DNA of 64,000 nucleotides from the NCBI GenBank assembly GCA_963971425.1, contig OZ020517.1, positions 11,534,501-11,598,500 of the forward strand, read 5' to 3'. How positions within the stretch are numbered: position 1 is the stretch's first letter; the number at the start of each line of letters is the position of its first letter. Shown one piece after another: positions 1,044 to 54,276 of the stretch. The DNA comes from Bryoerythrophyllum caledonicum (taxonomy: Eukaryota > Streptophyta > Bryopsida > Pottiales > Pottiaceae). The position numbers were made by a program, and so were the translations under genes. Under the pieces are notes generated by a model. The model had not been told where the DNA came from. It saw nothing but the letters and a program-made list of their open reading frames with translations, and searched no databases.

Positions 1044-4000
1044 ATGGGCGAGGAGTTTGTGTCGGAGGATGAGTTTCACGAAACGTTCGAGGACATCGCA
1101 TCCGCATCGGGCTCAGACGAAGGGAGCGACGGCCATGGGAATCGCGTGGGGGCCGTGGTGAATCGGCCGCCGGTGTGGTCGCCGTCCGCGTTCGAATCCA
1201 AGTTTTCGATCTGGAAGGACGACCCCAGGAGCATCAACGAGCGCAGGCAGCGCTTCTTTAAGGAGAAAGGGCTGAAGAGCTCCCGAGACGAGCATGGCTT
1301 TGCTCATGTTGCGGCCCTGTCCGCGGGCGAGACGGCGAGTAAGAGGTCGCGCAATTCAGTCGACGCAGAAGAAGAAGAGAAATCATCATCTCGGGACCAC
1401 GATGATGAGCATGTGAGTCACCATCTTCTCCAGTTTTGTTGCCACATTGCCCCCTCTCACCATCAAATTCAATGGAGGTTTGTGGGATTTCTCTTGCAGT
1501 AGTTTAAACGATTGCCACATTGCTTCTCACCTTCAAATCATGGAAGTTGGTGATATCTCTGGTTTGTTGCCACATTTGGTTTTCTCACCATCTTATCCAT
1601 GTCAGTCATATGTTAAGTTCGGATACTTTGTGGCAGTAGGTGATTGACGATGATTCTGTGTCTGTGCAGGTGAAGCCGACATGCGACAAGTGTGGGGGCG
1701 AGCGGAAGGGCGGATCGCCGCAGCTCTACGCGCATGTGGAAAGTGTACAGGTAGAGAAGAATAACCGCGAGTTGGATTCAGATCATGGCCTCAACAACCA
1801 TGAGGAGAATTTTGCCGAGAACAATGTAGACAGTAGAGTGGAAGCAGACACAACCGAGTCACCTCTGAAATCGTCCTCAGGTGCGAAAGTCTGCGACTGC
1901 GTGGACTTCCGCTTTACCTACGAGGAGAGAACCGCGAGGTACCTAGCGAAGCCGGACAGCGAGAGCTTGTCGTCGTTGGAGGACGCGTACCGAGCGTCCA
2001 GCTCCCAGGAGACGCTCTCCAGCCCGGAGAGCTTCCTGGAGGAGGAGCGTCTGAAGATCCGCGACCTGGACAGCGGGAAGGAGTTTCTGATGAAGCGCTT
2101 TAACCGAGACGGCTCGTTGAACATGCTCCGGGAGGTCGCAACAGGGAAGGACCTCACATTGGCCGAGTTTGATAAGACGCTCGGTCTGTTTTCGCCCGTG
2201 ACACAAGAGCTTCACCGACGAGAAAGATATGGTGACAAGCCTGAGGCTAAAACCACTGACAGTAGCAAACCTGCGCACGTCACGAAACGGAAGAGCTGGA
2301 TGAAGCGCCTCCGAGGCGCCTTGAAGACGACGAGCTCTAAGGCGCTTGACGGTGGAAGCACACGCAGCGTTGTTGCTGCTACCGACGACAGCAGCCTTGA
2401 CGACACAGATGCGTCCTCCGTTGTGGGCTCTCTTGAATCCTCGCCCAAGAGAGACAGCTCGTTTGCAGGATTGGATCGGAACGAGTTCATCAAGCGTGGC
2501 TTGCTGCCCGGTATGCCGACTGACGGCCTTGATTCTTCGTTCTGGAGGAAGCCGCAGAAGGTGAAGGTAAAGCTGAGGCAGAAAAGCTCCAGGGATCTCC
2601 CGGATCTGCACTTGAGCCAGGAGATTGTGGCGCACCAGGGCGCCATTTGGACCATGAAGTTCAGTCCGGACGGCCGCTACCTTGCAAGCGCTGGACAGGA
2701 CCGCGTCGTCCATGTCTGGGAAGTTGTTGACCATCCATTGATGGCAGACTCAGGTAAGCTTGTTGGATCTCACTTCCTCTTTAGACTACGCTTTCCTCTT
2801 TCTAAAATCGTTAGAAGAGCTTGGTGGTGTTCGGTCCATGGAAGAGCTTGAAGAAAGTGTTTGCATGAACATTAACCACCTTTCTAGAAGATACGGGAAT
2901 AATACCAGGATGTTATTGATGAGAGTTATATGTGGTTTGGTTGTCAGATCATTGGGGTGGCTTGGAGAAGGGTGACGGGGAGTTGGAGCGGAGAGAGTTT
3001 AGTCCCAAAGTGGACAACGATGGGAGCATCAAGGGAGGGCAGGACCGAAGTATGGCGAAGGTGGAGAAAGAAGGAAGCACCAGGAGTGGAAAAGGGGCAC
3101 CTCGGAAGGGACACAAGCCTAGCAGCCGGAGCAAAGGGCCGGTTCCCAAGCTCTTCTGGCTCTCTGAGAAGCCCGTGTGCTCTTTCCGTGGCCACACGGA
3201 TGACATTCTGGACTTGTCATGGTCTCGAAGTCAGGTATGGACTGGATTTGCCGTGATTGAAACGTCGCCCACAGTTTCAATCAGATACATCTCTTTAGAA
3301 TTGCAATACTATTATTTCCTCACTTGTCATAGCTAAGAGCTTGGTGGTAGAATCCGTCAATGGAAGAGCTTCAACGTTGTGTAAACTTTTCGAGCTTTAA
3401 CGGGCGCTTTGTGTGGGTGTGTTTGTGTGCCAGTTTCTTTTGTCTTCATCAATGGACAAGACAGTACGATTGTGGCACATTTCATATGACGAATGTCTGC
3501 GGATATTCCCACACAATGATTATGGCAAGTCGATTGATTCACTCTCGAGGAGATTCGTGTTGTTTTTCCTGTAATGGATATTTATAAAGGTTGTTTGTTT
3601 CGAACTTTTTTGATGACATTTGTTGTGGTGGATGGCAGTTACTTGTGCACAGTTCAATCCTCTTGACGACCGCTACTTTCTCAGCGGGTCACTTGATGAC
3701 AAAGTGCGGATCTGGAGCATTCCTGATCACCATGTCGTCGATTGGAGTGACCTGCAAGAGATGGTCACAGCGGTATCCTACAGTCCGGACGGAAAGGTGC
3801 TTGTTTTGACACAATGGATACTCGTTGTGATGAAAAATACTTCATGCGCTCAATGTGCCGAGACTAACAGATTCTTAATGGTGTTCGGTTTCAGAAAGCG
3901 CTTGTTGGCTCTTACAAAGGAACGTGTCGCTTCTACAATGCTTCAGGTCAGTGCACAACCTTAGTCATTAAATTTTTTTGGTAGTATATCTCTTGTGATA

Positions 4001-21739: not shown

Positions 21740-21987
21740 AGAAGGTTGGTTTCATTGGTCGTCACATTGTTGACATTGCCAGGTTGTTTGGAAAAATACA
21801 TGGTTGTGTTGTAGCGGTGGTCTGGGTTCGATTCCCGTTGTTCTCGTTTGAGCATCGTTACGTTCATTCGGCGCTATCGAGCTAGAGGAACAGGAAATTT
21901 CAACACCTTGGGCCCCTATATTGTGATAAGGTTACTATTATAAATAAAGGTGGTTATATTTCATTACTTTTTTTTTTTTTTTTTTGA
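21740..21987 (+). repeat. Decayed tRNA-like segment with T run in the LINE 3' UTR
   Basis: Plus strand has GGGTTCGATTCCCG, a perfect T-arm/box B sequence, only a few bases after TGTTGTAGCGGTGG (box A-like). The spacing is too short for a tRNA, so about 25-30 bases are missing. It ends in a run of about 20 T at 21967-21986. It could be a truncated SINE on the plus strand, or the run could be a poly(A) stretch belonging to the LINE. Confidence 0.35.
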
Positions 21988-21997
21988 ATAGTTGGGT

Positions 21998-24900
21998 TTA
22001 TGGTGGTTGTACGCCTATTGGTAGTGGCTCTCCGCTTTCTATTTTTCTTTTGTGTAGTATTATGGACATGGCATGGTGTATAGCAATTGTGTTTATTTCT
22101 CTAAATGTATTTTTTATAAGTTTCTTTGATATTTTGAGTTTGGTTTTAAGGATTTTCATAGGAGGGATGTGTGTAGATGCTCTGGCACCAGCTGTAATTA
22201 CTATTAGTGGTTCAACTATCCAACCTTTGTTGATAATATCGTTGATGAAAGGTTGGTATTTTTCTATCTTTCTCTCAATGGTATCTGGTGAGAATCTGTC
22301 ATTACAGTATGTGAATTCTATAAATTGTACCTTTAAATTGATGTTGGGAGATGTAGGGGGGTTTGATTGGTAGGATAGTCCTTTTATGCATAGTAGGTCT
22401 AGTTTTAGTCGTGCATTACATTGGCATCTTTGTTGTACGCATGTACATGGTAGTAGCCATGGAGGGACTGTATTCTCTGGTGGTTTATCATTACATGTGC
22501 CGGCATTCATGAGGGTATAACATCTTGAATTTTTTGATGAGACTAGTAGTTTTTTAATTTCCCAAACTGCTTTATTGTGTCTTTTTGTTCTAAGCGCATG
22601 TATATGGTGTTGTTTGCATTTTAGGAGGCATGTTTTTTGGGAGTCTGTTATCTGTTTATTAGTCCAAAATTCATTGGATAGTTTATTGTCAATGTCAGTG
22701 TTACTTATCCATTTATTTATATTGGGAAAATTTGTTGCAATGTCTGTTAAGTTGTGTTCTTTGTCATATTTAATAATATGTTTTTCAAGGAATCTTATAG
22801 GGCCTTTATCTGGGGTTTCGTCCATAGAATGCCACCAGTCTCTCTGAAAGTAATATGGTGTAGAATGTGCAAATTCATGTGGTAGGGCTGCATTGTGGTA
22901 ATCTTTGTCTCTACCTTGTTTGGCTAGTTCGTCAGCTTTTTCGTTGCCATCTGTATTTGCGTGAGCTCGTACTTTGTACAATGATGTAGGTTGTGTTCTT
23001 TGTTGCAAAAGTGTTACTATATCTTGTAGAATGGTTTTGTCCGGATGGTTATTATGTTGGGTGGGGTGTTTGAGTTGTGTTTGGATATTGTACAGGCCAT
23101 TTGAACAGTCTGTGAAAATGTGTGCAGGTTCATTAGGGTATTTGGAGGTAATGATTTGTAGGGTTGTGTATATTGCCATTGTTTCAGCTCTAAATATGTT
23201 TTGTAAACCTGGGAGTCTTATGGCTAGTTCTATATTTTTGGATTGATTGTATATTCCATATCGTGCAGTTTCACGAGTCCAATGATCGCCCATATCTTGT
23301 GGTGGGAGAAATGAGCCATCAGTATAGTAGCAGTATTGTGGTAAGAATTTGGGTTGTTTATCATTTATGAAGTTAGGAATTGTTGTTGTATTGTAGTTTG
23401 TGACTAAGTTGTTTGTAGGATATGTGAGTGTGTTCCATTCTTTGCTTTTGTTAATTTGTGTATTTAGTTGTGTTGGCGGGACAATTTGTATGTATGGTTG
23501 AGGGATTTGGAGTTTGTTAAAAATTGTGGTTAGGGTGGTGATTTGTTCATTATTTCCAACACTGGTGTTTTTATGGTGTACACATAATATGTGAAGAGCC
23601 GAAGGTTCTATTCATTTTTTAGTAAATTCGGGTGGTTTTGTTGGTTCTTCATATGTTATTGTATCTGCTGGTATGTATGTAACAACATGTGTGTCTGGAT
23701 AGGGGCCTTTATGCGGTGTTAGATTATGGTACCAGTTGTTGTCGGGAGTAGTTATTATGGTAATGGTGTTTGGATTGTTTTCTGCTGCAAGTCTAGCCCA
23801 GTGTATAGCTTTCTGGGTATCTGTTTTGTTATGTGGGTGAGCATAGCCTATTCCTTTCCATTTGTAAGAAAATGCTTGTCCCATAGATCCAAAAACTTTG
23901 TCTCTTTTAAATGGTGAGTAAAACTTATCTATTTGAGTGGAGCAAGTTACTGGTGAGGAAAAATACGTGTGAGTTATATTGAAAGATGTTATGATGTGGT
24001 CAAGTAATATTTTTGGCAAGGAGTAATGTGCAAGTTTAAGTGGGTCGGTTTTTGGAATTCTATATTTGTATCTTTGGTATAGCCATATTATTTCTGTTTC
24101 AAATGGTTGTGTGGGAGGTGTTAGTCTGTGTGGTGAATCTTTTGCTTTGGAGTATTGGTTCCATAGCCATTTTAGTCTGGCTATAGGTATAGTCGTGAGG
24201 TGTTTGCCTGTTTCATCGTAAAGGTGTGCCGTTTCATCTTTTATTTGTATGGTGTTTTGGTTGGTGTTGATATCTTTTGAGGGATTGCATTCATTTACAT
24301 TGATATGTATAAGGGGGAGGGGCATGGTTGGAAGTATGTATCTTGTATCTCGGGTTTGATCCTCTACAAAATGGGTATTTATTAAATTTCTATAATGAGT
24401 ATGTTGTTTTGTGGTGTAATATTGAGCAAGCAAGGAGGTGTTGTGTTGTATAGTTATTGGTATGTTTAGTGGGAAGAGGCCACTTTGTGGTATCCATTTA
24501 TTATATGTAATATCGTTTGGTAATTTCCATTGGCATAGGTAGGTGTGGTATGTTTTTGGAATTTTGTATTTGTCTTTTGTTTTGTTTTCTTTGTGGTCTA
24601 ATATTGAGTGTATGGGAAATGTAGTTGGGTTATTGGTGATTTTAATTGGTGGTTTCAAATAAGGGGGATGTGGTGGTGGTAGGCGGTGTATAGGATTTGT
24701 ACCAAGGTTGGGTAAAATATGATGGTCGTGTGTTATATATTCATGTTTTAGAGTTCGTGGTGTAGGGTGCTCAGAGCATGGGTTTTGACATTGTGGGTTG
24801 CATGTAGAATAGCAGAAAAGTTGTTCAGCTATGTTAAGGGCTTGTTTGATTGCTTTAGTTGGTGTACTGTAGTATATTTTGAATTCACTATGTGACATTA

Positions 24901-26101
24901 GATTTAGACCATTTGGGAGTGTTAAATGTTTAATCTCATGTATGTTTTGAAGTAATAATTTGTTGAGGAGTTTGTGATTTTGCTTAAGGGTGAAGTGTGG
25001 TAATATTTCTGATGATAGGTTTAGCCACATTTGTTCAAGAGGTGTGGCTTCAAGTGGAAAGTTTCTTGTTGTACTTCTCAAGTGAGCGCCTCCACATCGT
25101 TTGATAAGATAGAGTGTTCTTGTTGTAGGTGATCTTAAACAATTGTATTGTTTAATTCTGGGAATCTCTTGTGCTCCGCCGTATTTAGCAAGTGTAAAAT
25201 GTGTAAGACCTCTATAGATTATTCCCAATTTTCCTCTGTCATTAAGAGCATTGCGTAGTTGTTCACCTATGCACATTAGGTATGCGTTCTTTAATGAGAA
25301 TGCTTCTATGCCAAACATATCATGTGGCAATTGGGTAATTACGTTGGGAGTGCAATTTGGTAGCCCACAAATTTTCTTTTGTATTGCTATAATTTTTTTG
25401 TCTAGTTTTTTAATGGTAGGTAGTGAGTATGGTACCGCGTAAAAATTATATGCAATGCCTGCTCTTATAACTGTGTCTACCATGCTGACTTTTTGTTTAA
25501 TAGTAGCTGGACAATTTACTAATTGGTTGCATTGTTTAATTAGTTTGGTGATTGTTGTGTGTGTCTGTATTTTCCAATTCAATGATGGAACTAGTTGTAT
25601 TCCTAGATATACATATGTCTCATTTTGATGTAGTATGGGAATCGGTTGGTTTCCGTATGATATATTTGCAGCTTGTATTAGTGCTTTGAAGACTATTTGA
25701 TTTGCTTTGGATTTGTTTGGGCATCCTGTAATTGCACATTTCGGAATTCCTAGGTCCATTCCTGCCCATTCGCAGAATTTGTCCATTTTATTTAGTTGAT
25801 TTTTTATTGAGGGAAGTTTGTTTGTTATGATTGCAAGATCATCTGCGTATGCTGCTGTATTTATTGTTGTTTTTGAAGTTCCCAAGGTATAGCCGTATTT
25901 TCCTCTTTGTAACCATCCTAAAAGTGGTTCTAGAAAAATAAGAAAGAGATATGGGCTAAGTGTATCTCCTTGTATTGTGCCTCTTTGTATGGATATTTTT
26001 TGGGTTTGGCCAAAGTATTCACCAGTAAAAATGGTGTTAGACTGTGAGTAGATATCTCCCACTAGCATTACCGCGTCCTCAGGGTATCCTAAATCTTTCA
26101 T
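21998..26101 (-). pseudogene. LINE ORF2, C-terminal part: RT palm/thumb, extra domain, RNase H
   Basis: From 26101 the frame runs to 21998 with a single in-frame TGA at 23612-23614. The RT part shows RGTIQGDTLSPYLFLIFLEP, the catalytic AYADDLAII and GIPKCAITGC. Between RT and RNase H (about 23690-23960) lies a segment with FYSPFKRDKVFGSMGQAF, KWKGIGYAHP, WARLAAENNPNTITII and DNNWYHN that is not a standard LINE domain. After the TGA, RNase H has YTDGSF, FRAETMAIYTTL, HIFTDCSNGL and DGNEKADELAK, so all four acidic positions are present. The tail contains KRHNKAVWEIKKLL and a Cys-rich WLLPCTCVQQRCQCNARLK motif. Compared with the copy at 45.1 kb, about 43 codons holding CPTC...H...C are absent near 22620. 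Confidence 0.9.
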
Positions 26102-28296
26102 ATGGCTAGTAGACGGGCGTGGTCAATCGAGCCAAATGCATTTTTGAAATCTATATAGAGTAAATATATATCTTGCGTTGTTAGTTGTGCATCTTCTAAG
26201 GCCGCTATTAGTAATTGTAATTGTCTAGATGTGCATCTTTCGGCACGGAACCCTTCTTGGCTGTCATGTAGAATTTGGTATTTTTCTCCGTATGCTGAGA
26301 GTATTGATGTTAGTGTACTTGTAAAAAATTTGTATATAGTGTTGGCTAGCGCTATAGGTTTGTGATTTGGTAGTTGGGATGGATCACCCTTTTTGTATAG
26401 TAGTATTGTGAGGCTTATTTTCCATGATGCCGGAATTTGTTTTTGTTTATAGCAATGTTTAAAGAATAGGAATAAGATGCGGTGGAAGTTTGTAGGCATG
26501 TTCTTCTGGATAGAGTTGGGTATTTTGTCCGGTCCTGGGGTTTTGTTGTTTGCAAGGTTTTTTAGGCATAAGTCAAAAGTTTCTTGATCAAAGTATGTAT
26601 GTAGCGGAGTTTGTGGATGACCTCTTTTATCTATTACAAAGCCTTCTAGGTCATGCCATGGGTATTGTCTAACTCCGCATGTGCATTCAGGAGGGTGATC
26701 TGGTAAGTAATAACATGTTGGAACAGTGGGTTTATTAATAATTGATTGTTGTATGTAAATTTCATTGGCAATGTCTTGTGGGCTCGTTAGTATGTTATTA
26801 TTACGATCTGTGATGCAATCTAATGGTGGTGTTTCTTGGTTTTTGAATATTTTAATGTTTATCTTTTTTGGGCTTATTTCGTATAATTGTCTGTATTTGG
26901 ATATAGCCTTTTTAATACATTCTTTTGTGTAATTTGACGTGATTTTTCTTGCTTTTTTGTTTGCGGTTTTGGCTAGTGTAGCTAGATCATTTATCCAAGG
27001 TTCAATAAGTAAGTCGTCATTAGGGGGTGGTGGGATCTTGACATGGGTGTGTTTGTTTAATTCATTGATAATTGGATGTGATCGCCATTGTGGTGTGTTT
27101 TTTGTGATATATATTGCTTTTCTAATTAGGTGGTATGTTGCAACATGTTTTTTCCATGTTTTTTGGGTTTTGCGTGGTAAGTATCCTCCTTGTTTTGAGA
27201 TTCTATTATTCAGTGTAGGTATGGGTGGCACGCTACACGTATTTTCTATGGCTTCTGATATTTTTTGAGTGATTTCGTCTATATTGGAGCATGCTAGTTT
27301 CCATTGATCGGAATTTAGATGTTCGTATGATAATATGGTGTCTAGGTCATTTAATTGTAAAGCGTTGTTTTCATAAAAGTTTGTGTTGAATTTATCTAAA
27401 TTATCTTGCGGTATAGGGTTGAGTATTCTAATTGGTCTCGAGGTAGGTGGTGTGGGGTGGCGTGCAATAAGTTTGTTTTGGGGTATGTGTAGTGAAATGG
27501 GTGCATGGTCAGAGTTAAGATTGGCTTCTGTGATTGTGGTACATGTGTATAGATTGTGATTTTGTGTTTTGATATAAAAGCCGTCTATTAGACTTGTATG
27601 TGTATAGTTGTATCCACCTTGTCTAGAGTAGTTTGTATTTGTTGGGACATATGTTAGTGCTAAGCTATCAATATATGTTTTCCATGCAAAATCTTCTTCT
27701 TGTGGTGGTGTGGTATTATGTTCATTTTGTCGTCCTATTAAAGCTATGTCTCTATTAAAGTCTCCACATAATATGAGAGTGTGGTTAGGATATGTGTTAA
27801 TTTGTGTTGTAATAGTTTGTTGTATTATTGGGATTAGTTCAATATCATCATGATGTGAGGGCATATATAGGTGTATTAATAGCCATGGTTGTAGTGGATG
27901 GTTTTTTATGTGTATAATTTGTAAGTAGGGTGAGATTTTTAGAGGGGTTGCTATTTTGATGATATTTCCTGGGTATGCATATTTGTGATTTATTAGTGTG
28001 AGTAGTCCTCCTCTAGCGGGTGTGTAAGGGATCCGTTGTTGAATGCATCTAGTTAGTGCGTGAGTATTGTTAAATATTAGTTTATAATCTGGGAATAGAT
28101 TTTGTATGTACTGTATTGATTTGGTGGCAGTTAGTTTAGTTTCTTGGATGGTGATAATGGCCGGGTTTGTATGTAAGGCAAGTTCTTCTAAACTAGGTAA
28201 TGCAGTATTTAGTGTAGATGCATTCCATGTAACAATGTTAGTTTGATGGCTATTGTTATGTGTATTGGATTGAAGTGGTGGTGAGATATGGGTCAA
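26098..28296 (-). pseudogene. LINE ORF2, N-terminal part: APE endonuclease and RT fingers
   Basis: This frame encodes an apurinic-type endonuclease: TNIVTWNASTLN, IQETKL, LCGDFNRDI and SDHAPISLHIP. RT blocks follow: NNKTPGPDKIPN, WKISLTILLYKKGD, HKPIALANTIYKFF, EGFRAERCTSRQL and LYIDFKNAFGSIDH. It stops at TGA 26098-26100 in the sequence CCATATGAAAG, where ATG of the next frame overlaps the stop. The protein homology continues without loss across this point, so a one-base deletion is the simplest reading. The frame has no ATG at its 5' edge; it overlaps the end of ORF1 by a few bases and its first in-frame codon after the upstream stop is GTA. Confidence 0.9.
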
Positions 28297-30344
28297 TGGA
28301 GGGGGTGTGTGTACTCATCTAGGGGTTCATAAACTCTTAGTGTTTCTTCGAGAAGATTGTTTGGTAGAAAAGGAAATTTAATTTTTAGCATTTGTATTGA
28401 TGGTGCATTTTGTGTTTGGTGTATGAAATCATATAATTCTTTGTGTATACTAGATGAGGGGTTTATTACTTTTTGATTATTTGTAATATATTGTGTATAT
28501 GGATGTTCGATGTGAATATGCCTTTCGGGTGGGTTTGGTAGTGTAGACATCTTGTTTAATAGCTTGGCGGTCCAATCCGGTTCGGGAAAATTTATTAGTT
28601 GGTGTTCACATGAGTTTATGTTAGGGCTGATGGTTGTTATTAGTGCAAATAATATTTGTGCTAAAGGGTAATTTCTTATTCGGTTGAGATATGTGTTTAA
28701 GTGTGGAAAGTCTCTAATAGTAATTTGGTGGTATTGGTGATCTTGTTTTAGGATGGGGGAGAAACTTTTTGCAAGGTGTTGATACTCAGGTTGGAGTTTG
28801 ATTGTACAAGAAATGAAGTACGTTTTGTATCTACGTTTATGAGCTGATGGGTGGGTTTCAAACACATTAGGCATAGGGCCAGGGTTGGTTTCAATATCCC
28901 CACATTTGATTAGATGATGTATATCATTATATTTGTAGTAATATGTATTGATGGTTGTCTTGGATACATATATTGAGGTAGTGTTAAAAATAGATTTTAT
29001 ATAACAATCTCTTTTGGTCAAAAAGTAAGTAGGTTGAAATAGTGAGTTTTCTAAAAGATTTGTTTCTAAAAATAGTTTGTCTAAAAATACGATTTCTAAA
29101 AACAGATTGATATTTATTTCAAAAAGATTCATATATATTCTTACTGTTATTAGAATTTCTATTTTTAGTAAGTCTATTTTTGGCGCCTTCGGCGCCAAGA
29201 CGTCCGGCGAGACAAAATTCCCACCTTGTATTTTTATTCTTCTACAAATTCCCAACAAAATCCTACTCTTTAATCGCAAACTCTTCTCATCTTTATATGT
29301 ATCAAGTTTAATTTTACTATTACCTTTCCTTTTATCTCTATAATATATATTCCAAACTCTATTATTAGTATGTACTATTTTCGCTTGCTCCGGGGTTGTA
29401 GCCATGATGAAAGCATGAGAGTCCTCCTTAGACTTGTGTACTCCCGTGACTTCGATTTCTTGCCCTCTTGTGAAGCTATTGTGTAGAATGTCCTTGAAGA
29501 GTGCTTGTGCTGAAATTCCTACAATGGAGTCACTTTTCTCTTTCACGGATAGGTTAGAACTTGCAATGTGATGGAAGCTCTTGCAAACCTTACATATGGT
29601 GTTGTGGCCATCAATTTTGAGTATAAAAGGCCTAATGCCTTTGAGCATTATAAGACCATCAATTTCTGGTTTTAATAGGTGCAGTTTAACAATACCCGCC
29701 CATACTCCTTTTTTCCCCCCTCTTTTAATACTAAGGCATTGTATGGAGATAGGATCAATGAGGTCCTCACCAAGTTCAATTTCCATAAGTTCTAGTATTT
29801 TAACAACCATGTTTTTAACTTCATCATGCATCATGGGGGAGGTAGGAGGCTCAAAATGAATAGCAACTTGGAAGTCTAATGTCAAACCTGAGGTGTTATT
29901 GACAATAATATCACAAGGAACCTGGGTTATGTTGAAATGTTAGCCCTCCACGCCGTTTCTTGTACTTGGGTATAATTGTTGGGGAATCCTTGGAAAGGCA
30001 ACTTTGGCAATGCTTGCTTCCTCTGCCTCCTCCTTCTTCAGGCCCCTAACCATAAGATCTTGAGTTGTCTCTTTTCTAGGGAGCTCCTCCATGCCCTCCT
30101 CTTGTGCAAGAGTTTCCATCACCTCAAATCCAAACCAGAAGTTAAAACCCATGTTCAAGGGTTCGAGTGTGAAGGACTTACCTCTTCCTTCTGCGGTGTT
30201 CTTGTATTTCTTGGAGCTGCCGGTCACTTCCTCCTGTTTTTTTGCAAACTTCTCCTTTAAAGATGTGGTGGAGATTGCCGCAGGGGACTCTATTTCCATG
30301 GCTTCTTCAAAGAATAAGTTTCTTTTGGGGTCCCCACTGGACAT
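28293..30344 (-). pseudogene. LINE ORF1 protein with internal 2A-like motif
   Basis: The ATG at 30344 opens a frame that runs to TGA 28293, broken once by TAA at 29940-29942. Its N-terminal 134 codons are Lys/Glu-rich (ISTTSLKEKFAKKQEE, RKETTQDLMVRGLKKEEAEE). After the stop come QVAIHFEPPTS, KGVWAGIVKLHLLKPEIDG and a small Cys/His motif TICKVCKSFHHIA, which could be a zinc knuckle and recalls ORF1 proteins of other LINEs. A low-complexity Leu/Ile/Asn stretch follows, then YNDIHHLIKCGDIETNPGP. About 190 residues follow the 2A motif, beginning PMPNVFETHP and with no domain I recognise, to the overlap with ORF2. ORF1 and ORF2 are in different frames. Confidence 0.8.
28875..28904 (-). other. 2A-like ribosome-skipping motif in LINE ORF1
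   Basis: The codons read CGDIETNPGP, a perfect match to the D-x-E-x-N-P-G-P consensus, preceded by a hydrophobic/helical stretch (IHHLIK). In known 2A peptides the ribosome fails to join the final Gly-Pro, giving two proteins from one frame. Here the break would separate the Cys/His-bearing ORF1 protein from a downstream product starting with Pro. Activity is not shown by sequence alone. Confidence 0.85.
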
Positions 30345-31600
30345 TTTTGAAAAGGAGGGATCGCAAGTGGAAGTTGGAGGGTCGCAGGGAGGGTTTGGGG
30401 GGTCTCTATGGGAAGCTAGTGGGTCGTTGAAGGAGGCTACAGGGTCGCTCTGCCGAATTGGGGGGTCGCTGCGGGGTTCTGCAGGTCGCTACAGACTTAT
30501 TTCGACAGCTGCGGGGTTTTGCGGGTCGCTGCAGGGGGTTACCAGTACTTCTCTTCCTTCTGTACCGATCTCTTGTGCGCGGGGGAGGGAGTTCAAGGTT
30601 GAGAAGGGGAGGGAGTTCAGGGTTGAGAGGTGGAGGTTTTTTCAGGGAGTCGTGAGGGAGGGTTGTGAGGAGGGGTGAGGACAGTTGGGGTTTGGGTGAG
30701 GGCGGGGAGGAGTAATCGGGGAGGAGGGGGGGTTTAGTTTGGAGCTGGGAAGGGGGCTGGGAAATGGCAGGGGGGAGTGAGGTTGAGAGGGTGGATAGTG
30801 AGGGTAGGGTTAGGGAAGGTCGGGTGGGGAGGGAGAGTAGCAGTAGTAGCAGGAGCGGGGGGAGGTGTAGTGAGGTTGATAGGAGGGAGAGTGAGGGGAG
30901 GGTCAGGGAGGAAAGGGAGGAAAGGGATGGAGGTTTTAGTGAGGGCGTGGGGAGGTGTTCAATGGGGAGGTGAGAGAAGATCAGCCGAGGATGAGGGAGG
31001 ACGACGAAGTGGTAGAGTAAGGTTGTGGGGAGGGGGGGTGAGATCTGGGGGTGGGGATTAGGAGAGATGGAGTTTGCGATCTGGGGTGTACTTGGAGGGT
31101 TCCGTCTTGCTCCCGCGTTCGCTGCTGCGTTTGCTCGGCCTCGCACCTGCTGCCGCTCGCCCCCGCGTCCTCTGCTGTGTTTGCTGCCGCGTCTGTCTCC
31201 GATCTTTGGACTTGTTGTTCGCCGAATTCGTCCTCGCGTCCGCTGCCTTGTGCCGGTCTCGCCCTAGTATTCGTGTCCACTCTGCTGCTGTCTTTCGGCA
31301 CTGAGTCCGCTGCAGCTCTTCAGTCTTCTTCGCAGGTACTGTCCGCGAGCTCTCCCCACTGTATTTCCTTCGTGGTTCGCAGATAATGTCCTCGAGTTCT
31401 CTGTTTCGCAGGGACTATCCGCGAGCTCGCCCTTGTGTCTGCTGCCGCTCTTCAACCTGCTCCGTCTTAGTTTGTTCAGGGTTTCTAACACTGCCTGTTG
31501 ATGGTTTTTTGATATTATTATTTTTTTTTCTTTGTGTCTACAGGGGAATGGACAGCCCTTCCGCACGTGATGGGACGCTCTGGGCCATAGGATGTTGGAG
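30345..31600 (-). promoter_or_regulatory. GC-rich, strand-biased stretch upstream of LINE ORF1 (probable 5' UTR)
   Basis: Plus strand is purine-rich (GGGAGG, GGTTGAGAGG, GTGAGGGGAGGGTCAGG) from 30.58 to 31.07 kb, so the LINE strand is pyrimidine-rich. Short duplications occur: GGGTCGCTGC-GGGGTT at 30460-30540, GGGAGTTCA-GGTTGAGA at 30588-30630, and TCCGCGAGCTC at 31337 and 31408. Long Pro/Ser-rich open frames here follow from composition. The boundary to host DNA was not found. Confidence 0.4.
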
Positions 31601-32680
31601 GAGGTGTGTGGGGAGGAGATAGGTCTATCACTTGAGGTATTGTGTCTATTTGTTACTGTGTGTGAGAGAGTAGTGGTGTGTTCTAGGGTTTGTCTAATTG
31701 GTATATTCTGTCTATGTGTTGTGCTTCTTGTGGTGTATCTAGATGTATAGATCGTAGTGTTAAGTGGGAGAGAGGCTGAGGTTTGTGGAGTAGGGATGAT
31801 TGTGTAAATACAACAAAGAAAAGAATGGTAGTATTGGTTATTGAGAGACGTACATGGGTCTGTTGAAGCTGATTCGTTTGGTTGTGTGCACAGATCTATC
31901 GACGGGGATGTAGTATGTGCTGCAGCTCTGTTTCGATTCAGATCCGCTATGGTGCGAGGTGTACTCCTAGTTGCTGTAGGGTTTGATGCTGCTGCTCCGG
32001 TCTGTTTGGGGACAGCTCTGCTGCGTGGGGTGCACTTCCGCGCTGTGACGATTGTTACTGTCCTGCTCCCACTACGAGCAGCCCTCCTGTTCCTATACTT
32101 ACTCCACTTAAGAATACATGTTAATGTATGTACGCGACTGCATAATGCAAAAAAAAGATCTACTTCTAACCATGAAACTTTGCAATAGATGGGAGGGTAA
32201 GGGATAGCCTGTGGTGTCGAATTGGAGCTGCGTAGCAGCAGTGTTGAGTGATGACTTCGCCCTATCTTGAGACTTGGGTTCCTGGGTTGGGGAGAGGGAG
32301 ACTTGTTGGAGAGGTTTCCAGATATGATCCCTGTGCTCCAGATCTGGGATGGGTCGTGTTCTATGTGGTCTAAGTGGTGGCAGATCTAGCCCCAACACTA
32401 AGTTCCCCGCTTCAGATCGTACTTGCACAAATCTGCACCTTCTTGAGACAACCTTCAACTCCCCTCCTCAGATCTGGTGTTGAGCCATCCAACACGTCTA
32501 CTGTATCTCAAATCTCACCAAACTACCATTGATCTGCACACTACGGGGGGCTCCCAATAGGGCCAGCTAACTCCTATTGCACGCAGTTTGCAGCTCACAA
32601 GCTAAGTCCCCCACCTCCCCTCACCAAGAAATACGGAGCTCACGCACTGGTCATCTTCTTCGGCCCGTAGGCTTGCAGTC
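31601..32680. other. Intergenic, no gene seen
   Basis: Mixed-composition DNA without convincing coding potential, RNA gene or recognised repeat. Confidence 0.35.
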
Positions 32681-32980
32681 TTAACCCTTTAACGAAGAGG
32701 CCTTGCACGGGATCCTGGAAAATCTACACGGTCAGCCGCAAAAAATATGAACAACATCTACGCGGAGGGTACATTTCACTATTGACTATTTTCACAAAAA
32801 TCATTGTAGTTAGTCAAAGCCTCAACCGATTGGAGATCGGGTAGATGGGTTTGATCGAGGAACGCAAAGCGCATTGCTACTCCGACCAGTGCAAATCAAT
32901 CCAAGAGTTCAATCAGCAGTGGTTCCCAAAAAACCATTCTCATCGACCACTTTTTGGTCCCTTCGTCATTAAAAAGTTAA
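32681..32980. mobile_element. piggyBac-like MITE family A, copy 1
   Basis: TTAA-CCCTTTAACGAAGAGG at the left and CCCTTCGTCATTAAAAAG-TTAA at the right, 300 bp overall. Body words CCGATTGGAGATCGG, AGTGCAAATCAATCCA and GTTCAATCAGC are shared with the copy at 59063-59363. No ORF. Confidence 0.75.
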
Positions 32981-34950
32981 GAGAGTTTGTCGCGGTCTTG
33001 GGAGGCGTTCTACAAACCCCGCCCCTACAATGAAAGGCCCAGCTTCCCTTGACCATGGATGAACCAAAAATCTCATCCACTCATCCATCCACAACTTCAG
33101 ATGATAGTCACCCGGAATGAAATACCGGATCATGAACTGCCTGATTTTAATGTGGATTTCTCCACAATCATGGTTCTTGCACTTGCCACCGTAAGGTCTT
33201 TATTTGCAGGCCATTGAAAGCTGGGCCTGTCCTGGCAATCACGACTTTGAGTGTGTACTTGCACTGTACAGTACATAACATTGCTCGTTGTGAGCCAGTT
33301 CATTTCATGATGATGATGATGGTGAGGTTGAATTTATTTGTCTTCAAGCTACCGTCATGCCTTGCAGCTTTTATCCCAGGCAAGTGGGGGCGAGAGATTG
33401 TGCAAAACGGGATTTGATGGAAATTCCAACAACTCTCATATGTTTTGGCATCAAAAATAGCTTTAAGTAGCATAGCTTTTTCATCTGATGTTGGATTTAG
33501 AAAAAAACAAATGTATGCTAAAGCAGCTCTTAGAAGTGCCCATCTATTCGACGTGTTCATTGTCCTGTACATAACTAATTCAAAATGAAGACGGTCCAAA
33601 CATTTTGGAAAATTCAAGGGATTTGTCTAAAGTCATACCCATGTAATGCCAAGGTCATACCCATGTAATGCCAAGGTCATACCCATGTAATATATAGGTG
33701 ATACTCATGTAATACCTAGGTAATACATGTTGTGTCCGATGCACTATGAAAAAATAATTTGTTTGGCTAGGAGTGTCCAAAGTCGACCAATGCATATGGT
33801 GTAGTAAAGAATCTCAAAGAGAATTGTTGAGAATCAACACAAAACAACTTACATACATTCTTAAATAACCTAATTTCGGGACATTTGGTCCATTTGGGGT
33901 TGATTTGGATTTTTTCAACTATCGGAAACGAGGGTTGTCTAGGAAGCTTATTTAGATAGAAAAATCATTCACATAGTTTGAAAGAGTGAAGCATTTGTTC
34001 CTTTGAATTAGTGAGAGATGAAGATTATTGCACTATAAATACATAACATAGTCTTTCAAACCACATGATAAATTTTGAAATAAATATGTATGAAGTAAAA
34101 AGAAGAAAAAGGCACCTAAGATTCATAGCATAACATGAGCTCTCCTTCCAAGCTCTCAAATGCTGCTAAAACTACTTGTAACTTGGCTTACGAGATCATC
34201 AAACTCTTCCACATATAAAAGATAGTTAAAGTAAACAAAGTGATTCATTTGAGGCGTGATGAGCGACAGCTACAACCACCTCTGTTCGCGTGAACAATCA
34301 CGGGTTAAACCTCAAGTGAATCACAAGAATTTGCACTAAATCAAAATCACATGCTAGAGAATAAAAACGCATTCACCAATGTAACATTCTGTGAAAATAT
34401 CTGATCCTAGACAAATTTCAAACGAAGAAACAAAACGAAACCCAAGAAGAAAAAGGCCACATTGGGAGTCTCAAAAAGGGCAGCAAGTGACAGACGAACT
34501 GTTCAAATAGCTGCTTCTGGGACAAATGATAGGATTGAAAAACTGCAGACCTCTGATGGCCTTCTCCAACTTGGATGCCTGGTAATAGCTTCCCAATTTA
34601 GCTGGACAACGTTTTCTGGAGGAGTTACGAATGGCCAGACAAACCTGTCATGAAAATGATGTGGGACATTTTGATTGCATAGTAAAATGATGCGGCTTAC
34701 ATACTTTGAAACTTTCGAAAGGTGACACAAACCCCACCTTGCAACTCTCAATATTCGTCTACGAAATGATGTCTCATATGTACGTGCACTCCGTGGCTTC
34801 ACACTTCGTGTAAGTCATGTCCACATGCATTCGCATTCGCATCCCTGCCATGCACAAACAACCAATTTAACATTCTTCTTCCAGGGAAACTGAAGAACTG
34901 AGGCCAAAACTTTGAGTAAAAATCTCACCTGTCAAAACTGAGAAATTTGT
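32981..34950. other. Intergenic downstream of CYP40, no gene seen
   Basis: Contains a decayed reversed copy of the intron MITE family at about 34085-34215 (CCTAAGATTCATAGCATAAC, CATGAGCTCTCCTTCC) and the repeat at 34745-34855 shared with 19440-19535. A (GAT)n-like ATGATGATGATGATGG run is at 33308. No coding support. Confidence 0.4.
33630..33728 (+). repeat. 22-bp tandem repeat, about four units
   Basis: GTCATACCCATGTAATGCCAAG repeats about three times and decays into GTGATACTCATGTAATACC. Confidence 0.8.
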
Positions 34951-40680: not shown

Positions 40681-41650
40681 AAAAAGAAGAATTCATGTCC
40701 TTGAAGGGGGGCTGGAGTGAATAAAGTGTCTATTTGTTCCACCCCTAAACCCATGTCCACCCGACATAGTATGGAACTACTCCCTCCTCACAAGTGTAGA
40801 CACTATGTAACCAGTAATCGGGAACCAGGGACCAACCAAACCAATTCCAAGAAATGATCTCTAGGAGAGGTTGGTTATTTTTAAGTTTCCGTTTGAGTAG
40901 AAGTATGGACATTGCATGTCAGATAGCAATGGTGTTGATTTTTGTGAATGTTTAATTGGATTAATGAGGATATTGAATATTTTTTCAAAACTTTTCATAG
41001 AAGGGATAAAGGTAGTAGCTCTAGCTCCAACGGTAATGACAATAAGGGGGTCAACTTTCCATCCAAGATTTGCAATGTCATTAGTAAGTGGTTGGTATTT
41101 TTTTATTTTTTTTAATTACTTATGGGGGAAATTTGTCATTACAGTATTTGAATTCAATAAATTAAATAATAAGGTTTTTATTTTTGTGGTCTAAATGGGG
41201 GTCTTTATATGGTAGTCCTTTGATGCATAGTATGTTTGGTTTAGATCTGGCATTACAATGACATCTTTGGATTCCACATGTGCATGGAAGTAGCCATGGA
41301 CAAACCATGTTTTCTTGTTGGTTGTTGTCAAAGGTTCCGGCGTTCATAAATATGAAGCATTGGAATTTGTATGAGGATACAAGTATGTTTCCGATTTCCC
41401 ATACGGCTTTATTGTGCCTTTTGACAAATAGGGAGTGTATGTGATGGTTTTGGCATTTGAGGGGTACATTTAGCCATGTGCCTAGTTCTGTGGAGGTGCA
41501 TATTGGGCATGTTATGGTTGGAAATTGTTCTATTCCAAAGAAGAGTTGTTTGCAGGCATTCGCCAAGAAGTTCTTGTGGAGGTGCATATTGGGCATGTTA
41601 TGGTTGGAAATTGTTCTATTCCAAATAAGAGTTGTTTGCAGGCATTCGCC
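40681..41650 (-). mobile_element. 5'-truncated LINE fragment (RNase H-distal coding end and 3' UTR)
   Basis: Minus-strand translation gives KQLFFGIEQFPTITCPICTS, HIHSLFVKRHNKAVWEI, CPWLLPCTCGIQRCHCN and NILCIKGLPYKD, matching the C-terminal end of the LINE at 22 kb. The R tail follows at 40681-40830 with AAGAAGAA at its end. An 86-bp tandem duplication (units from 41491 and 41577) repeats GGAGGTGCATATTGGGCATG. Unlike the large copy, it keeps the CPIC motif. It is decayed. Confidence 0.85.
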
Positions 41651-42001
41651 AAGGAGAAGAACTATGGTTTCCGAAGGAGACCGGCGTGAATGTAGTGTTT
41701 GTTCATTCTCTTCACTAAACATATGGCCACGGGACATTGGCTAGTGCAATAGAACTACTCCTCCCTCTTGAGGGTAAACACTTTTCTACACTAAGTGCTT
41801 CCCTACACTAATTGCCTTAGAGACAACCGACATGTCATCTCCCAAAGGGCTTTGAGGGTCCCCATACAACAAGACCTTGGGACCCCCCACCATAATTGGG
41901 TGGACTATGGTGGTAGGCACCACGTCGGCAATAGGACTTGAACTCGCAACCACCTCATCAGTGTGCCATGACCCAAACCACTACACCAAGGCCGTGGTGC
42001 C
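41651..42001 (-). mobile_element. tRNA-headed SINE sharing its 3' tail with the LINE
   Basis: On the minus strand the head begins near GGCACCACGGCC. Box A TGGTGTAGTGG (41988-41978) and box B GAGTTCAAGTCC (41945-41934) are about 33 bases apart, the normal spacing for a Pol III promoter. A body of about 150 bases (ATGGGGACCCTCAAAGCCC, GATGACATGTCGGTTGTC) leads into the R tail (GTGTTTACCCTC...ACATTCACGCC) and ends GTTCTTCTCC. The same body and tail without the head are at 56781-57020. The tail equals that of the LINE, the arrangement known for SINEs mobilised by a partner LINE. Confidence 0.82.
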
Positions 42002-44639: not shown

Positions 44640-45135
44640 CCCCCAAGAAGCCCAAAATGGGACTCCGGAGGTGCTAAAACTTAATTTGCATGAAATCTGT
44701 GAGGAATTAGGCTTCAAGATACTAGGTTCACATTTGCATTTACATTACATGAACACTCTCCAACAATTAGATCATGATTTAGATTTATAGAACTCTTGGA
44801 AAAGTTAGGAATACAATACAAAGTACATCAAATACACTAGAATACAATGAATACCATGCGACATACTATGTTGTATTTCACACACATGCACATTGATTTT
44901 GGTCTTAAATTTTGATTGAACTTTGTCTTTAAGACATTCTTCATTGTTTTTTGATTGTTGATCTCTCTCCTCACATACAAAACTTCCTTTTTGATTTGTA
45001 TAAGGTTGGAACACTTTTGTATACAATCAAGTACAGAAAAAAAAATCACCAATAATTATATATAGATATTTTCTTCACATATGATATGCCAATGCAAAGC
45101 TATCAACCTATAAGAACTACGTATAAAAAAAAGAC
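44640..45135. other. AT-rich intergenic, no gene seen
   Basis: No supportable ORF, RNA gene or repeat. Confidence 0.4.
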
Positions 45136-47130
45136 AAATGACAATCCTCCACAAAGTTTGAGCCCATGCTGATATTCATGGTAACGAACAAGCGGATAAA
45201 CTAGCAAAAGACGGCCGAGAAAAATCACAAAAAAATGCCAAAGATCCACACGAATACGCCCACGCCACCCCATACTACTTCCAAAAAGAAGACTAGCCCT
45301 CCAAAGAAGATACCCCCGATAAAGGCCTGGTTAGATTCTTGAGCAAATACCTCAAAAAACAAGACCTATATAACAACCTTGACACAATCTCAGATAACTT
45401 CCCTAACATAGAAAAGTGGACTAGTAACAACAACATAGACAATGAACTCTCTACAAATTTCTGGAAAAATCCCATCATCACTAACTCACAAGCAACATGC
45501 CTTATTAAATTCCGTATCGGACAATACATGGGAAACGCCCGAAAACAACTCTTCTTTGGAATAGAAAGATTCCCATCCATAACATGCCCAACATGCACTT
45601 CCACCGATCCTGACACATGGCCACATATTTTACTTAAATGTCATAACCGCCACATACACTCCCTAATTGTCAAAAGACATAACAAAGCCGTATGGGAAAT
45701 CCGTAAATTAATCGCCTTCCATTACAAATCGAGATGTTATATCCTCATGAATGTCGGCACCTTTAATAACAACCCACAAGAAAATACAGTGCCACCATGG
45801 CTACTCCCATGTACATGTGAAACTCAACGATGCCACTGCAATGCTCGACTCAAACCGTACATACTCTGCGTTAGAGGTCTACCATACAATGACCCCCCAC
45901 CCGACCACATAAACCAAGACTACACCATTCAATTCATTGAATTTACTTACTGTAATGACAGATTCTCCCTAGAAACAATCGAAAATAAATTCAACAAATA
46001 CCAACCCTTATTGATGACATCACTACCCTCGGGTGGAAAATAGACCCCCTTATTGTAATCACAACCGGCGCACGCGTCACCACCTTTATGCCCTCTATAA
46101 AAACCCGAGAAGATACCTTCAAAATTCCCATTGATACAATTACAAACACTTTCAAAAATTTTAACATCATTGCCATACAACATGCTATGTCCATCCTTCT
46201 ACATAAACGCAAAATTGAAAACAACCAAGCCCTTCCGATACATAAGACCCCTCATAAAATTACCCCTTTGCTTTATTTTTAATCCCTGGCATTGTGAAAC
46301 ACACCCTCCTCTCCATCTTTCCTTCCTTTCCATTTTTCTCTCTTCTCTCTCTCCCCCCCCTTCCTTCCTTCCTTCCTTGTTACTCTTTTGATTGGTTGGT
46401 TTTGTGGTTTTTTGACTACTTGTTACAATAGTGTTTACCCTCGAAAGGGGGAAGTAGTTCTAGTTTACTAATTCCCTATCTAGTGGACATGGTCTTAGTA
46501 CACTAAAATTTATGTTTAGTGTAGTGGTACGAATAGTGTACTTACCCTAGTACACTATTTGTAAAGAAGTTGACAATTGGTGTTAGCTACCAATGTCATT
46601 AATGTAACCTTCATTCAAACCCCAATCAATCCCCCAATCATTCCAACCCATGCTTTTCTTCATTTGCAACTTTCAAATGGTCATAACTCATTCAAAACTT
46701 GTCCAAATTGGGGAAATGAGGTGTTTTTTTAGCTTCTACGTTTTCTGTAGATGCCAATAAACACCTCAAATGTCCAATTCGGGTTTATAATGAATGAGTC
46801 GTGGCCAATTGAAAGCTGCTGATAAGATACCATGACAGCCCTCGACTAGTGGACCTTTTATTATACTTCTACTATTGATACACTAAATGTGCACAAGTGA
46901 AAAAAATTATGTTGAAATCATTACTAAAATTGACAAATAGTGTAGTAGTTGGCATTTAGTGTAGGGTTTTGTCACTACACAAAATGCCTCGTTCGCAATT
47001 GGTGTATGAGTTCGCATTTAGTGTATACTACACTAAACATAAATTTTAATGTAGTGGAACGAATAGACACTTTATTCACGCCGACCTCCTTCGGAGACCA
47101 GTATTCTTCTTCAAGGGACTCTATTCTTGA
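45136..47130 (+). mobile_element. 5'-truncated LINE fragment with nested insertion in its 3' UTR
   Basis: Coding remnant at 45136-46282 begins in RNase H (AHADIHGNEQADKLAKDG) and continues through PDKGLVRFLSKYL, the CPTCTSTDPDTWPHILLKC motif, VKRHNKAVWEIRKL, WLLPCTCETQRCHCNARLK and FIEFTYCNDRF. It has a few breaks. A CT-rich 3' UTR with (TTCC)n at 46355-46377 leads to the R tail. The tail is split at about 46499-47053 and resumes with GACACTTTATTCACGCC, ending CAGTATTCTTCTTC at 47113. Confidence 0.88.
46499..47053. mobile_element. TIR element nested in the LINE 3' UTR
   Basis: CACTAAAATTTATGTTTAGT at the left is the near-perfect inverse of ACTAAACATAAATTTTAATG at the right; the pair extends over about 27 bases. 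An alternative boundary is offered by the 15-base direct pair TAGTGGTACGAATAG / TAGTGGAACGAATAG. Class not assigned; no ORF. Confidence 0.6.
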
Positions 47131-52860: not shown

Positions 52861-53937
52861 GCAACTCTAGTTGCTCAAATTTCAAGAGGAGAAGAAAAGA
52901 GAGAAGATGGAAACAAGGAGGACAAAGAAGGGGAGGGTGAGAGAGTGAATGACAAGGTAAACTCCAAATCTGCCCTTTTTAGATATCCAATATTAAAATC
53001 AGCCCATATTTGTCTCAGTCCAAATCATCACAAACAAATCATCCTTCAAATACACACACATCCTTCAAATTAAACATCATTCACGAAAGACATCCTTAAA
53101 ACATATACATCCTTCACATTCTTCAAACATATCTTCAAAAGAAAACCTAACCCGTCTCAAGAATAACATTTGAAACATAAAAAGAGAGCCATTTCAATTG
53201 CAAAATTCAACATACTTGTCTCCAAACCCCAGGAGCTGATTTTGCTTCACAGACCATGAGCGGAACCCATTGTACCTACTTACAAAAGATGTCGCATGCA
53301 CAACCCCATCAATGTAACAATAAAACTCAAATCCACATGATCTAAACATCATGAAAAGGCGCTCCAAATTGCGGCATGCATGCACACACACACCTTTGTT
53401 TATTATGCAACGAGCGCCGCAGCAATGTTTCCCACGTTGAAAATGATGGTGCAGTTAACCAGTTTCACCTCGGCTTCATGAGCGCCTCATCACTTCCTCA
53501 TCCACACCTCCGAGTTGAAACTTGATTGCCATCACAACAATCATCCTAGGGTTTAGAAACCGCACCTTGCAAATCCACCGATCGGCCGAGAAACTTTGCG
53601 GGAACTTTATAAGGAGAGAGATAAGTAGAGAGACCACATCAGCGCTAAGACGCCATATCTTTCTGCTGCATAGTCATGAGCGCTAGCAAACACAACTCAC
53701 CGCAGTCGTCGCTCCAACACCATAGCCATGCATGAACAACACTACAACGACAACAACGAATGACGACCATGAGAAGCAAAAACATCGTCTTCGCTGCAGA
53801 GGAATCTGTGGAATGCCGCCAAGTTACGGTTTCCTGTTGATACTCACTACCTGCAGCTTCAATAGCAGGATTCCCTCCTCAATTTGCACCCAACAAATCA
53901 CCATTCGGTCTCTTAAGCCAAGCATAATATTCCCATC
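52861..53937. other. Intergenic, no gene seen
   Basis: Right flank of the Harbinger remnant. No terminal inverted repeat or coding region could be supported. Confidence 0.35.
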
Positions 53938-54150
53938 AGCAAAGCATTCTCTTTCCATCAGTGAAGCATTCTACTTCCATCAGTAAAGCATCCTCTTTCC
54001 ATCAGTGAAGCATCCTCTTTCCATCAGTGAAGCATTCTCTTTCCATCAGTGAAGCATCCTCTTTCCATCAGTGAAGCATTCTCTTTCCATCAGTGAAGCA
54101 TTCTGCTTCTATCATTAAAGCATTTTATTCCTATCAGTGAAGCAAGTTTT
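53938..54150 (+). repeat. 22-bp minisatellite, about nine units
   Basis: AAGCATTCTCTTTCCATCAG-TG repeats with CATTCT/CATCCT variants and decays at the right (AAGCATTTTATTCCTATCAG). Confidence 0.9.
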
Positions 54151-54276
54151 TGCACCCGTGACGCAATCTTTCCTATATATGAACTATTCTTTGGTTTGAG
54201 CAATCCTGGACATTGGCACTAGAGTGTGATATGGAAAGAAGCGGCACATCTCGAAGTATTTGTGTTTAGTGTGGGG

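Follow-up and report, generated by a model that had tools for sequence, protein, structure and literature searches.

Does the perfect 2A core found in the locus described here belong to a working ribosome-skipping sequence, and if so, which products of which element would it separate? LINEs bearing 2A sequences are known from trypanosomes and animals. The stretch of DNA that was analysed, hereafter the window, is 64 kb long and carries such a core, CGDIETNPGP, within a long open frame. We examine below the motif itself, the element that carries it, the conservation of both among relatives and the readings that could account for it.

The sequence CGDIETNPGP is encoded exactly where an earlier note on this DNA had placed it, at 28904..28875 on the minus strand, inside a stop-free frame that runs from 29939 to 28293 on the same strand. 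Its last eight residues, DIETNPGP, agree with the core octapeptide (D/G/C/N)(V/I)ExNPGP, and the position is internal to one open reading frame both in the window and in relatives. A degenerate DNA pattern that covers D[V/I/M]ExNPGP has a single match in the 64 kb and none in 100 dinucleotide shuffles; the pattern for NPGP alone occurs twice against 0.73 expected, so that the full octapeptide, and not NPGP alone, goes beyond chance. Behind the motif, the frame continues for 193 codons to its end at 28293 and shares 22 nt with the stop-free frame that comes next (28314..26098), in agreement with the roughly 190 codons counted earlier. The lead-in, which the same note had described as hydrophobic and helical, proved hydrophobic only in part, with two of five residues at p6-p10 (HLIKC); p10-p11 read CG. 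The final 13 residues of the window leader (LIKCGDIETNPGP) are the same in P0034.

Table 1. Positions in the window of the LINE copy, its parts and neighbouring features.
Feature	Position	Strand	Evidence
ORF1-like protein from a different family, in part; interrupted by a stop at 29940	29367..30488	-	Similarity to P0083-P0088
Leader at the N-terminus, with the 2A as its end; the element part has its first ATG at 29132; 5' truncation probable at about 29366	28875..29366	-	
2A/StopGo core CGDIETNPGP, predicted break between G and P	28875..28904	-	Strict octapeptide in 47/64 covering homologues
Post-2A domain, beginning at the Met after NPGP, 193 aa, predicted helical	28293..28874	-	Met in 64/64; AlphaFold
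APE-type endonuclease and N-terminal part of the reverse transcriptase (RT); frame broken relative to the post-2A domain	26098..28314	-	PF14529 and PF03372 above cut-off
C-terminal RT part (YADD) and PCIF1-like domain; second frame break	23612..26122	-	PF00078 1.8e-12; PF12237 7.1e-8
RNase H and C-terminal region; in-frame stop before it in the window copy	21998..23611	-	PF00075 5.9e-12
Poly(A) tail, an 18-nt poly(T) on the plus strand; 3' end of the LINE	21968..21985	-	Follows the final stop codon after 12 nt
3' fragment of a related LINE copy	40865..41656	-	
3' fragment of a related LINE copy	45126..46224	+	

The element in which the motif lies is a decayed copy of an APE-type LINE, with two frame breaks, one in-frame stop and an intact 2A core (Table 1). 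Matches to PF14529, PF03372 and PF00078 together with a YADD in the translation identify an APE endonuclease and a reverse transcriptase with its catalytic motif; within the piece at 26098..28314, PF00078 reaches 28.0 bits, slightly below its cut-off of 29.6. The element has a poly(A) tail and no LTRs, no flanking long direct repeat being seen in the 20 of 27 repeat families inspected, and a comparison of the 3' flank with 28700-33500 revealed no target-site duplication. The order of endonuclease, RT and RNase H is one that we take to resemble the I/Ingi group. Directly behind the 2A, the post-2A domain was modelled by AlphaFold as mostly helices (pLDDT 71.5, pTM 0.46), and a comparison of this model with the PDB returned no solved fold at E<=0.001.

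The overlap of the two frames behind the motif had been taken in the earlier note for the ORF1/ORF2 organisation of the element. In 14 of the 47 motif-bearing relatives, leader, 2A, helical domain and endonuclease start share one frame, the others ending earlier or lacking a landmark; the overlap in the window is therefore a frame break of this decayed copy. Of the two outcomes that had been proposed, a split of ORF1 into two products does not suit relatives that have no ORF1/ORF2 boundary after the 2A, and the release of an ORF2 polyprotein fits them. A programmed frameshift between ORF1 and ORF2 was also considered, and was set aside on the strength of the same 14 relatives. The complete single-frame order was pieced together from overlapping predicted proteins rather than read from one full-length copy: P0137 spans the region from the end of the helical domain (placed by eye) through the RT, the RT and PCIF1-like parts are joined in P0101 and in P0125, P0091 extends from the RT thumb as far as the C-terminus, and P0091, P0096 and P0150 each combine PF12237 with PF00075. 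Judged by these predicted proteins, the 2A belongs close to the N-terminus of a single long polyprotein and is preceded by a leader that evolves fast and is mostly basic.

P0150, which comes from a 2.6-kb contig, is 93% identical to the window over 28% of the piece at 23615-26122 and continues into RNase H. It reads through where the window has a stop, and intact close relatives thus exist for this part.

The upstream end of the long frame has another origin. The frame 29939-28293 was rejected as a single ORF1, contrary to the view that it is the ORF1 of the LINE throughout, because its upstream part (29939..29367) matches another protein family, P0083-P0088, with similarity ending near 29367. 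The ORF at 30305-29367 (minus strand) matches all six members, none of which holds the strict 2A octapeptide. For five of the six, similarity ends at or before 29367 and the proteins then diverge beyond the junction; only in P0087 does the alignment extend further, to 29274, with an overall identity of 40%. The members that were scanned gave no Pfam or NCBIfam match, and no significant continuation of the ORF1-like protein past the LINE junction was found in the window. All six matches come from contigs of at most 17,285 bases and none from contigs of at least 20 kb, where 43 of the 82 motif-family proteins are located. Among proteins of about 300 aa or more, to which the comparison extends, this distribution speaks against the possibility that the upstream ORF is the motif family's own ORF1.

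Conservation was assessed with the motif-bearing protein (ATG 29132 to 28296) as query, which yielded 82 homologues among 305 candidates; 64 of the 82 reach the motif position and 18 stop short. Family copies without the motif were named in the earlier note as the observation that would count against it. This was checked, and the strict octapeptide is intact in 47 of the 64 covering homologues. The other 17 are near misses, 16 of them altered inside NPGP. On contigs shorter than 20 kb the motif is intact in 27 of 29 cases, on contigs of at least 20 kb in 20 of 35. A tree of the 64 homologues and the window, built with the motif columns left out, requires no fewer than 11 switches between intact and damaged motifs, and the near misses are scattered over it; each larger grouping includes intact motifs, in a tree in which 35 of 62 inner branches have support below 80 and nine rows fill less than half of the columns. 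We read this as an ancestral motif that decays in old genomic copies.

The motif has also been kept over considerable divergence of the protein behind it. Mean motif identity, taken over seven fixed positions, is 0.896 at 40-50% identity of the downstream domain (465 pairs) and 0.908 at 50-60% (647 pairs). The other classes give 0.673 at 30-40% (seven pairs), 0.852 at 60-70%, 0.884 at 70-80%, 0.929 at 80-90% and 0.929 in the top class; pairs with more similar bodies do not have more similar motifs, and motif identity stays below 1 even among close relatives because damaged copies are included. Across the 64 rows the motif columns have a mean conservation of 0.94 versus 0.71 for 152 domain columns, 20% of which equal the motif mean, so that the motif is not uniquely conserved. 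Its retention across the whole family makes it very likely that the motif is used rather than accidental, and its assignment as a conserved 2A/StopGo-type sequence of a LINE family is supported by these comparisons. Searches of the viral and genome contig collections gave 35 and 221 pattern matches, none of which was confirmed as a relative, and the plasmid collection, queried with the endonuclease-RT piece, gave one weak bacterial match.

The reading that we prefer, with a probability of roughly 0.77, is that this LINE family, with its one long ORF, has in the motif a 2A (StopGo) of the working type, at which the leader would be released and the polyprotein continued. A ribosome translating leader, 2A and polyprotein would let the leader go at NPG and would resume with P-M-P..., which would give a polyprotein with the defined N-terminus Pro-Met and the order helical domain, endonuclease, reverse transcriptase, PCIF1-like domain and RNase H. 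In this manner, two products could be made from one frame without a second start codon, and the freed leader may act like an RNA-binding ORF1 protein. Skipping at the 2A is what we infer here, along with this role of the leader.

The residue that follows the motif permits a different explanation, namely that the downstream protein starts by internal or leaky initiation at the Met after NPGP, and that the 2A-like residues are kept on that account, being incidental or of use for initiation. Met stands directly behind NPGP in all 64 covering homologues, those with damaged motifs included, which makes an internal start at this place a rival or an addition to skipping; moreover, of the 18 homologues that stop short of the motif, 11 (e.g., P0019, P0023 and P0029) begin at that very Met. 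Such predicted starts are, however, the output of a gene caller and not data. Position -3 before the AUG is the C of the Pro codon, a weak context for initiation, and a start codon would leave unexplained why D-I-E-x-N-P-G-P and the preceding (S/C)G are conserved. Initiation at this Met appears unlikely as the reason for which the motif is kept.

The leader deserves separate consideration. Leaders are only 14-15% identical between relatives with 40-60% body identity (86 and 149 pairs) and 45% identical at a body identity of at least 80%. Their size ranges from 74 to 326 aa in the 33 relatives measured, and the mean composition of 33 relatives' leaders of at least 70 aa is 18% K+R versus 5% D+E. 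The window leader runs against this general pattern: counted from the ATG at 29132, it has 7 K+R and 9 D+E and is not basic. Common motifs were seen in ten leaders, of the KRARPTGLA type in seven and of the S-A-x-R/Q-P-R-H type in three. In the window, 28905-29390 is stop-free, and none of 20,000 Markov simulations with the same dinucleotide make-up stayed open over this length, the last 24 nt of which belong to the other family (P0083-P0088). Taken separately, the halves 28905-29132 and 29133-29390 were open in 29 and 4 of 20,000 simulations, respectively. As part of this open leader lies upstream of the first ATG, a 5'-truncated coding leader is suggested.

Such a junction with a foreign ORF could also mean that the main role of the 2A is one of release after in-frame read-through from any upstream ORF, by which truncated or promoterless copies would be expressed as fusions. 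The open frame of the window does pass from the ORF of the other family straight into the 2A, and leaders are hardly alignable except among close relatives. A single in-frame joining is nevertheless a one-in-three chance, and the motifs shared by ten leaders and the basic average of the 33 measured make the leaders look element-encoded, and this explanation seems distinctly improbable. That the motif arose by chance or is a fossil, and has no function, as the decayed state of the window copy (two frame breaks and a stop) might suggest, is hardly credible and appears already largely refuted by its conservation in the family, since the pattern is absent from 100 shuffles and the motif is kept though the downstream domain has diverged to 40-60% identity.

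Further observations concern the leader RNA. A GC-rich hairpin lies at 29172-29225 (minus strand) within the AT-rich leader, and the fold of 29120-29260 is more stable than all of 200 shuffles (z -2.83). An Rfam search at E<=1 gave no match at the hairpin and a single lncRNA match elsewhere (24970-25048, E 0.41). In nine relatives with intact NPGP an arginine-rich motif stands 44-137 residues upstream of NPGP, measured from its nearest copy; hairpin and arginine-rich motif perhaps reflect a shared structured RNA. In the leaders of P0012 (KDIETNQDPMPNILQ) and P0026 (ENIETL), what looks like the decayed remnant of another 2A unit lies further upstream, which hints at 5' units in tandem.

In order to place the putative 2A among known StopGo sequences, its upstream context was compared with described motif classes. 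Residues p10-p11 read [ASC]G in 39 of the 47 strict motifs, at least three of five residues at p6-p10 are hydrophobic in 32 of the 44 relatives with enough sequence (two of five in the window), and p15 is Thr in 26 of 46 relatives. The L-rich StopGo motifs 2 and 6 of RNA viruses, as excerpts of a 2026 survey describe them, have a lead-in ending in [ASC]G, Asp at p12 and a preference for Ser at p15 (PMC12846837). When compared by eye with these excerpts, the lead-ins of the relatives fit this L-rich class, as far as it is described there, through [ASC]G, Asp at p12 and, in most relatives, a leucine-rich lead-in (PMC12846837). They differ from it in the frequent Thr at p15; furthermore, the 2A described here is encoded by a retroelement and not by an RNA virus, and the window lead-in is less leucine-rich.

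Retroelements with a comparable arrangement have been described. Heras et al. reportedly found, in 2006, a 2A in the trypanosome L1Tc/ingi non-LTR elements, APE-type LINEs with RT and RNase H. In those elements, as in the window family, the 2A precedes the enzymatic polyprotein in the same frame; the window family differs in its host lineage, in its leader length (74-326 aa in the relatives measured) and in having a 193-aa helical domain and a PCIF1-like domain. Virus-like 2A sequences are also said to have been reported by Odon et al. in 2013 from APE-type LINEs of multicellular organisms, the same combination as in the window family; animal hosts are reported among them. Some context on 2A sequences in non-LTR elements is found in parts of two further articles (PMC4981915; PMC11512398). 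In the former, the passages on sea urchin NLR proteins describe N-terminal 2A-like sequences that double as signal sequences (PMC4981915). As in the window family, the 2A described in those passages stands near the N-terminus between a leader and a larger protein, whereas most of the LINE leaders measured here are basic.

One domain of the polyprotein is PCIF1-like. PF12237 (PCIF1-like) lies at window 24400-23615 (minus strand), between RT and RNase H, and the family is that of a cap-adjacent mRNA methyltransferase with the catalytic motif NPPF. The match scores 32.7 bits in the window piece against a cut-off of 31.1, is likewise above cut-off in P0089, P0091 and P0150, and falls below it in P0125; a PCIF1-like domain is present in 28 of the 106 RT homologues. 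A profile search of the PDB matched 6irx (PCIF1) at an E of 0.023 only, the window sequence alone had no PCIF1 match in the PDB, and a structural model of the domain was poor (pLDDT 52.2). The catalytic NPPF was not seen at its expected place: the position after FGSxG, chosen by eye, reads AHPH in 19 of 26 proteins and NPPF in none, and an NPPY-like string occurs elsewhere in five proteins. The domain is possibly a capped-RNA recognition module. Among the paper titles listed on PCIF1 and retrotransposons, none pointed to such a LINE.

A green-lineage host is probable for this family. That the element is a plant-lineage LINE, as the earlier note proposed, receives indirect support only: the RT homologue P0183 bears the source code Chrzof1, which we read as Chromochloris, at 34% identity over 38% of the query, and is the one eukaryote recognisable from source names in the RT homologue list; a WD40 gene at window 1640-2851 looks to be of plant type. 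Among the paper titles listed, none pointed to a green-lineage LINE with a 2A, in a coverage that leaves aside the surveys of Odon 2013 and Rao 2025, and within these bounds a green-lineage LINE family with the present 2A architecture appears to be new. According to excerpts of the 2026 survey, StopGo works in plants when engineered, these parts of the survey report no evidence of natural use by plant viruses, and plant viruses have almost no StopGo motifs, six cases being treated as misassigned hosts (PMC12846837). If the conserved 2A of a green-lineage LINE proves true, it would represent natural StopGo use in that lineage and would offer candidate 2A sequences evolved for plant ribosomes; the separation of leader and enzyme in a single-frame LINE would also become testable.

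We tentatively speculate one step further, on a picture that is possible and rather less than even in our estimate. There could be a green-lineage LINE clade without separate ORF1 and ORF2 cistrons, in which a basic, fast-evolving, ORF1-like leader is followed by a 2A and by a polyprotein composed of a new helical domain, endonuclease, RT, a PCIF1-like domain and RNase H. The PCIF1-like domain would be altered in its catalytic site and may serve to recognise the capped 5' ends of mRNA. Skipping would then set the output of leader and polyprotein, and this might be the first natural StopGo in plants or streptophyte algae.

Two minor observations may be added. The window holds at 53876-54183 a tandem array of about 308 bp with a 22-bp period. 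NCBI lists P0166, a piece of the same LINE family, as part of an archaeal MAG (Candidatus Nitrosocosmicus), most likely through eukaryotic contamination.
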